Below, one piece after another: positions 1 to 32,637 of a DNA stretch of 33,671 bases. Origin of the DNA: Bacteriovoracaceae bacterium (GTDB lineage Bacteria; Bdellovibrionota; Bacteriovoracia; Bacteriovoracales; Bacteriovoracaceae); contig JARXAH010000002.1 in the NCBI GenBank assembly GCA_029865945.1, positions 1 to 33,671 on the forward strand, given 5' to 3'. Numbering within the stretch: the stretch's first letter is position 1; each line of letters begins with the position of its first letter. The notes under the pieces were generated by a model. It worked only from the letters and a program-made list of their open reading frames with translations. It was not told where the DNA came from and searched no databases. The translations under genes and the position numbers were made by a program.

Positions 1-141
1 TACCTACGTAGTTTTGTAACTACCTAAGGCCCTCTGGAAATTTCGTCACGACTAGGACGACGTTTCGAGGCTTGCTTCCTGCAAGCCGCAGAAAAAGGAG
101 TCCGTAGAGTGGCGAAATTTACGAGGGACCTAGGTAGTTAC
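1..141 (+). repeat. Palindromic interspersed repeat, copy 1 (left end cut by window edge)
   Basis: This copy matches 32422-32562 at 135 of 141 positions with no gaps. Bases 16-141 form one long imperfect palindrome: GTAACTACC at 16-24 pairs with GGTAGTTAC at 133-141. Further paired blocks follow inward (CCCTC/GAGGG, AAATTTCG/CGAAATTT, CTA-GGAC/GTCC-G-TAG). It ends in a 7-bp hairpin, GGCTTGC/GCAAGCC, with a 5-base loop. Bases 8-23 can instead fold as a small hairpin, GTAGTT-TTGT-AACTAC. There is no coding capacity. The form resembles ERIC or MITE-type elements but I do not recognise the sequence. By comparison with copy 2, about 5 bases of the left end lie outside the window. Confidence 0.9.
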
Positions 142-32408: not shown

Positions 32409-32416
32409 GATTTTTT

Positions 32417-32562
32417 GTATCTACCTACGTGGTTTTGTAACTGCCTAAGGCCCTCTGGAAATTTCGTCACGATTAGGACGACGTTTCGAGGCTTGCTCCT
32501 GGCAAGCCGCAGAAAAAGGAGTCCGTAGAGTGGCGAAATTTACGAGGGACCTAGGTAGTTAC
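32417..32562 (+). repeat. Palindromic interspersed repeat, copy 2 (apparently complete)
   Basis: This is the second copy of the 1-141 element, with 135/141 identity over the shared part. The outer ends form inverted repeats: GTATCTACCTACG at 32417-32429 against the complement of the right end, GTAACTACCTAGG, 11 of 13 matching. The 8-base sequence GATTTTTT flanks it on both sides (32409-32416 and 32563-32570) and could be a target-site duplication, though it is low in complexity. It lies between folE2 and tatT, both on the minus strand, and separates tatT from its original upstream sequence. Confidence 0.88.
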
Positions 32563-32637
32563 GATTTTTTTATACTAGCAGGAGGAGAGGAAGAGGTAAA
32601 TTTCAAAACAAATATTTCAAAGCAAATAGATCAAAAA

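Follow-up and report, generated by a model that had tools for sequence, protein, structure and literature searches.

Two closely similar copies of a repeat that is predicted to fold into a long hairpin lie in the window, a 33,671-nucleotide stretch that constitutes an entire contig (C27) of a 3.08 Mb, 103-contig Bacteriovoracaceae genome. It is an open question whether small bacterial repeats fold to serve a function or simply because their DNA is palindromic. At this locus, what kind of element is present, and does its fold matter on one strand?

A sequence-only reading of the window had placed the repeat unit at positions 1–141. The repeat is real, but its left edge was misplaced: intact copies in this genome reveal a full element of 146 bp, GTATC...GTTAC, with GTATC starting five bases further left. 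Base 1 is the contig end, and exactly 141 bases are common to it and to other contig ends cut inside the element. Since many contigs stop inside the repeat with exactly 141 common bases, the left edge at base 1 is an edge of the assembly; an assembler word length of 141 would leave such 141-base overlaps. Approximately 35 copies are present in this Bdellovibrionota genome, and the element has the properties of a MITE, being short (146 bp), multicopy and devoid of transposase coding. The features of the window are as follows, with the apical cores aligned by the cross-phylum model R2 described below.

1–141, + strand: MITE copy 1, its left end cut by the contig end and GTATC missing
16–141, + strand: long hairpin body of copy 1, from the predicted fold and pair conservation
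67–89, + strand: apical core of copy 1 (R2, 11.7 bits, E 1.6 over 100 kb; a weak match in the right place and strand)
32409–32416, no strand: target-site duplication GATTTTTT, left of copy 2
32417–32562, + strand: MITE copy 2, complete, 146 bp
32417–32436, + strand: leader of copy 2 (20 nt), beginning with 14 bases that match the ends of a resident IS66-family element exactly
32437–32562, + strand: long hairpin body of copy 2
32488–32510, + strand: apical core of copy 2 (R2, 12.4 bits, E 1.1 over 100 kb)
32563–32570, no strand: target-site duplication GATTTTTT, right of copy 2

Longer copies (L024, L026, L027, L030, L044, L045 and L047) contain additional hairpins at fixed places and in varied combinations.

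Target-site duplications of 8 bp, matching at seven or more of the eight positions, flank 11 of 14 intact copies compared with none of 2,800 shifted controls, and copy 2 in the window has GATTTTTT duplicated on both sides. The element was moved by transposition and left 8-bp duplications behind, a property that the earlier reading missed. IS66 elements produce 8-bp duplications and encode a DDE transposase that acts on duplex DNA. A resident IS66-family element at C76 consists of a single 471-residue transposase ORF between perfect 18-bp inverted repeats (GTATCTACCTACGTCCCT), and the MITE shares 14 identical bases with the ends of this element on the left and 14 of 15 on the right; BLAST of the MITE against it found no similarity apart from these ends. 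An IS66 transposase (PF03050 over the cut-off) is encoded at two loci in the genome, C76 and C9. The shared termini suggest that the MITE is a non-autonomous element mobilized by an IS66-family transposase, although the absence of a clear target duplication at the C76 element itself argues against this explanation. No MITE-like ends were found in the IS66 stretches examined from genomes G076, G024, G039 and G022.

The IS66-family element at the other of these loci (L049, on C9) has the ends GTAACTACCCA and is near the leaderless MITE copies C10 and C101, which start GTAACTACC.

The two window copies, compared over 1–141 and 32422–32562, differ at exactly six positions (10 A/G, 22 A/G, 52 C/T, 77 T/C, 79 C/T and 80 T/G), as had been reported from the sequence. 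Positions 77, 79 and 80 fall in the apical loop of the predicted + strand fold. The remaining three had been read as stem changes that each produce a G·U pair, which holds for the pairs 22–135 and 52–107. Position 10 lies in the 20-nt leader, outside the main fold, and is paired only in an alternative hairpin; thus, only two of the three stem changes concern the main fold. This alternative hairpin (8–23) had been put forward as one of two competing folds at the left end. It is broken in copies C83b and C73b, where the main stem carries compensating changes instead, and C10 and C101 have no leader at all (alignment read by eye), so the proposed competition finds no support among the copies. The + strand fold itself lies far beyond shuffled sequences (z-scores of −9.2 and −8.6 for the window copies), while the other strand folds less well.

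Conservation of this fold was assessed in an alignment of 23 distinct copies from this genome. At 49 paired positions the variant types comprise 14 Watson–Crick, 13 G·U, three A·C and 13 other, and two of the three A·C types stem from indel misalignment (in C10 and C15). Restricted to ten distinct short copies, the alignment has 97.9% of its cells paired and 12 pairs altered on both sides, compared with 0–3 in slid controls. None of 500 shuffles of these ten reaches any of the pairing measures, a count that is not a probability because the copies share ancestry. The + strand hairpin has been preserved by compensatory changes and by G·U pairs, and hardly by A·C intermediates; substitutions that break stems are not as frequent across the copies as those that keep them.

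The architecture of the body, with stems that change freely but stay paired, GA-rich internal loops and an apical GAGGC...GYCGCA, recurs in this genome in at least three further families. No match to the repeat came from a DNA-level search of 38 relatives, and related elements were recovered only by structure models and the core motif. Other long hairpins, in this genome and in ten further genomes of the family, were picked up by a covariance model of the core (R1) in which hairpin shape dominates. In genome G076, judged by eye, the whole plan of leader and hairpin is repeated with its own end sequence and with 8-bp duplications, GATTTTTT among them. A pattern for the apical core occurs in 13 of 291 genomes of the phylum and its reversal in none; a stricter form yielded at least 80 stretches, in genomes labelled Nitrospira, Rokubacteria, Gemmatimonadota, Acidobacteriota, Myxococcota, Bdellovibrionota, Solincola and Deltaproteobacteria. 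Sixteen core-pattern genomes hold between one and 15 copies each, the reversed control being zero, and most of the stretches fold into long ladders, some of them weak. Viral contigs contained no exact core match. The arms of these loci turn over in sequence, a left arm scoring a median of 18.5 against its own right arm and 7.3 against those of other loci, like shuffled sequence. As the folded core resembles hairpin repeats in unrelated phyla, the window element may belong to a widespread structured element.

The likeness to other phyla could instead reflect convergence of long hairpins, leaving the window element as a local IS66 MITE only. The shape-dominated R1 and the choice of the wide loci by the motif itself are compatible with this explanation, as is the score of R2, a core model built from loci of other genomes only, which gives the window copies about 12 bits (E of about 1); these are, however, its sole matches in the window at E values of up to 5, and both are in the right place and on the right strand. 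Other evidence argues for kinship. The reversed-pattern controls are zero in every genome, and CGA precedes the core without exception in 22 of 22 loci of the alignment even though it is absent from the search pattern. R2 also matches the own-genome copies C53 (7 × 10−7) and C26 (2.5 × 10−5), whose kinship with the window family is based on model R1 and a shared module, and its weaker matches are copies from further families of this genome (TATACTGATGCAGG, with TA-type ends, CCTGATTCGGCAAATCC and ATACCAATTCCGTTTAAT). The module, an extra hairpin TTGAGGAATCC...GGATTCCGAAG, is found at a matching position in long copies of the window type and in a single fourth-family copy, and is a stronger link across families than the R2 score. 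Convergence thus appears unlikely. Taken alone, the connection of the window copies themselves to the cross-phylum core is suggestive and falls short of significance, and homology of the window family to this core is likely, not proven.

Rfam searches at gathering and permissive thresholds gave no convincing match; a sub-threshold match to the Phe_leader terminator was discarded, as it lies beside an element and not inside one. A literature search with the literal core sequence returned unrelated papers only, and no description of such a hairpin family was found in the open-access journal literature covered. A tentative proposal, held with slightly less than even confidence, is that these repeats form an uncatalogued cross-phylum superfamily of mobile structured RNAs that combines a conserved GA-loop core, arms that turn over completely in sequence while paired on one strand, lineage-specific transposon ends (IS66, TA and others) and exchangeable hairpin modules.

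Two further arrangements were observed among the hairpin loci. In a Gemmatimonadetes bin the core stands in a tandem array with a 134-bp period (L170 and L194). In this genome and in G022 a hairpin family (L238–L243, L251–L253, L096–L098, L116 and L141) has the ends TATACTGATGC or TATACCCTTCG and is apparently flanked by TA, and was possibly moved by a TA-targeting transposase.

The wider set of loci allows the strands to be compared. Each left arm was aligned with the reverse complement of its right arm using a symmetric score, which avoids the bias of RNA folding rules, and mismatches were counted as isolated when flanked by four matches on both sides. Over 125 loci from 52 genomes the isolated stem mismatches are 30 G·U, three A·C and 34 other, with G·U in excess in 15 genomes and A·C in two (p = 0.002). 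The ratio of G·U to A·C is 57:9 with three flanking matches and 12:1 with five, and at three flanking matches G·A plus A·G mismatches number 23 compared with three for the mirror T·C plus C·T. These isolated-mismatch counts replace a first G·U count of 217:128, which included internal loops and was noisy. The + strand also gives the more stable predicted fold in 35 of 36 genomes, a figure that partly reflects the shared core by which the strand is defined. Strand-biased mutation could contribute to the asymmetry. Mismatch counts over more than 100 natural loci nevertheless point to selection on one strand, and the suggestion that the fold is selected as read from the + strand, made originally from the two window copies, is upheld both by these counts and by the G·U excess and the pairs altered on both sides within this genome. 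Such a number of natural loci with strand-informative mismatches bears on the question of whether folds of this kind are functional.

The orientation of the element relative to genes is only mildly biased. Among the placements in this genome, 21 of 29 have a right-hand neighbour on the + strand and 14 of 26 a left-hand one, and the window's copy 2 is antisense to the neighbours on either side. Elsewhere, tandem contexts run ten with the element and nine against it, and divergent gene pairs are the rarest context (three of 32, from crude ORF calls).

On the + strand of the window, positions 95–111 carry AAGGAG eight bases before a GTG, and the frame VAKFTRDLGSY that follows leaves the element at its right end. 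In five copies (L005, L007, L011, L014 and L021) this frame continues into a downstream frame; examples of the downstream frames fused to the element frame are KILVIGAGPAGAT and the MiaA-like MNSKSPLKIAIFMGPTATGKS. Judged from sequence, the element could supply a start site.

Taken as a whole, the observations favour, with somewhat better than even confidence, a MITE moved by an IS66-family transposase, the body of the MITE functioning as a structured nucleic acid once its + strand has folded, with RNA as the most likely form. The folded + strand would then be a transcript, and its GA-rich internal loops might be recognized by a protein or nuclease. The element might act in cis on the RNAs that hold the insertion, through stability, processing or insulation, by analogy with what has been proposed for BOX and NEMIS. 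A function as RNA is directly testable given the many loci, the several phyla and the presence of the family in at least one genome that is complete, that of Candidatus Nitrospira defluvii, where the core pattern occurs at four loci.

The folded + strand could matter as single-stranded DNA and not as RNA, in replication, in excision or through recognition by a single-strand DNA enzyme. A similar strand asymmetry would be expected. G·T is also tolerated in DNA hairpins, and both the nearly neutral orientation to genes in the wide set and the existence of copies antisense to both neighbours fit a role in DNA. The duplex-DNA chemistry of IS66 transposases, however, is not that of a single-strand enzyme, and an unsystematic look identified no linked single-strand transposase or recombinase, making this alternative quite improbable.

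Still poorer is the agreement with a plain MITE with a functionless fold, its arms kept paired by template switching between them during replication, which would copy a mutation in one arm into the other. Hairpins with compensatory changes are known to arise and persist through template switching (PMC8794818), and the almost complete turnover of the relatives' arms with pairing kept is what such a process could leave. It treats the two strands alike, so leftover A·C mismatches should equal G·U, whereas they stand at 3 to 30; moreover, the asymmetric internal loops are conserved and have not been corrected. Template switching therefore explains the paired arms and not the strand asymmetry, and is very unlikely as the whole account. 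Integron attC sites were dropped as a candidate, since the ends depart from the attC consensus and the target duplications favour transposition.

The favoured reading, a transposed element with a fold that works on one strand, can be set against known systems. The element resembles IS66 insertion sequences in the terminal sequence held in common with a resident element and in its 8-bp duplications, and differs from them in having no transposase gene and in being similar to the resident element at the ends only. REP and REPIN sequences are multicopy intergenic palindromes with conserved bulges. The present repeats are likewise multicopy intergenic palindromes with conserved bulges, but REP units are much shorter, and here target-site duplications and a 126-nt ladder are present.

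The ERIC, Correia/NEMIS and RUP MITEs (PMC2229807) are closer in form, being 100–200 bp in length with terminal repeats and target-site duplications. Their transcripts are predicted to fold into one long stem-loop, and effects on neighbouring mRNAs have been proposed (PMC2229807). In contrast to these, the present element has IS66-type ends and 8-bp duplications, its strand asymmetry has been counted over many loci and its core has likely relatives in other phyla. The BOX elements of streptococci (PMC3049150) are also interspersed folded repeats with optional internal modules, and in S. suis differing ends surround the same module (PMC3049150). Compared by description, the element studied here differs from BOX in that its modules are hairpins inserted at fixed places and its ends are of the IS66 type.
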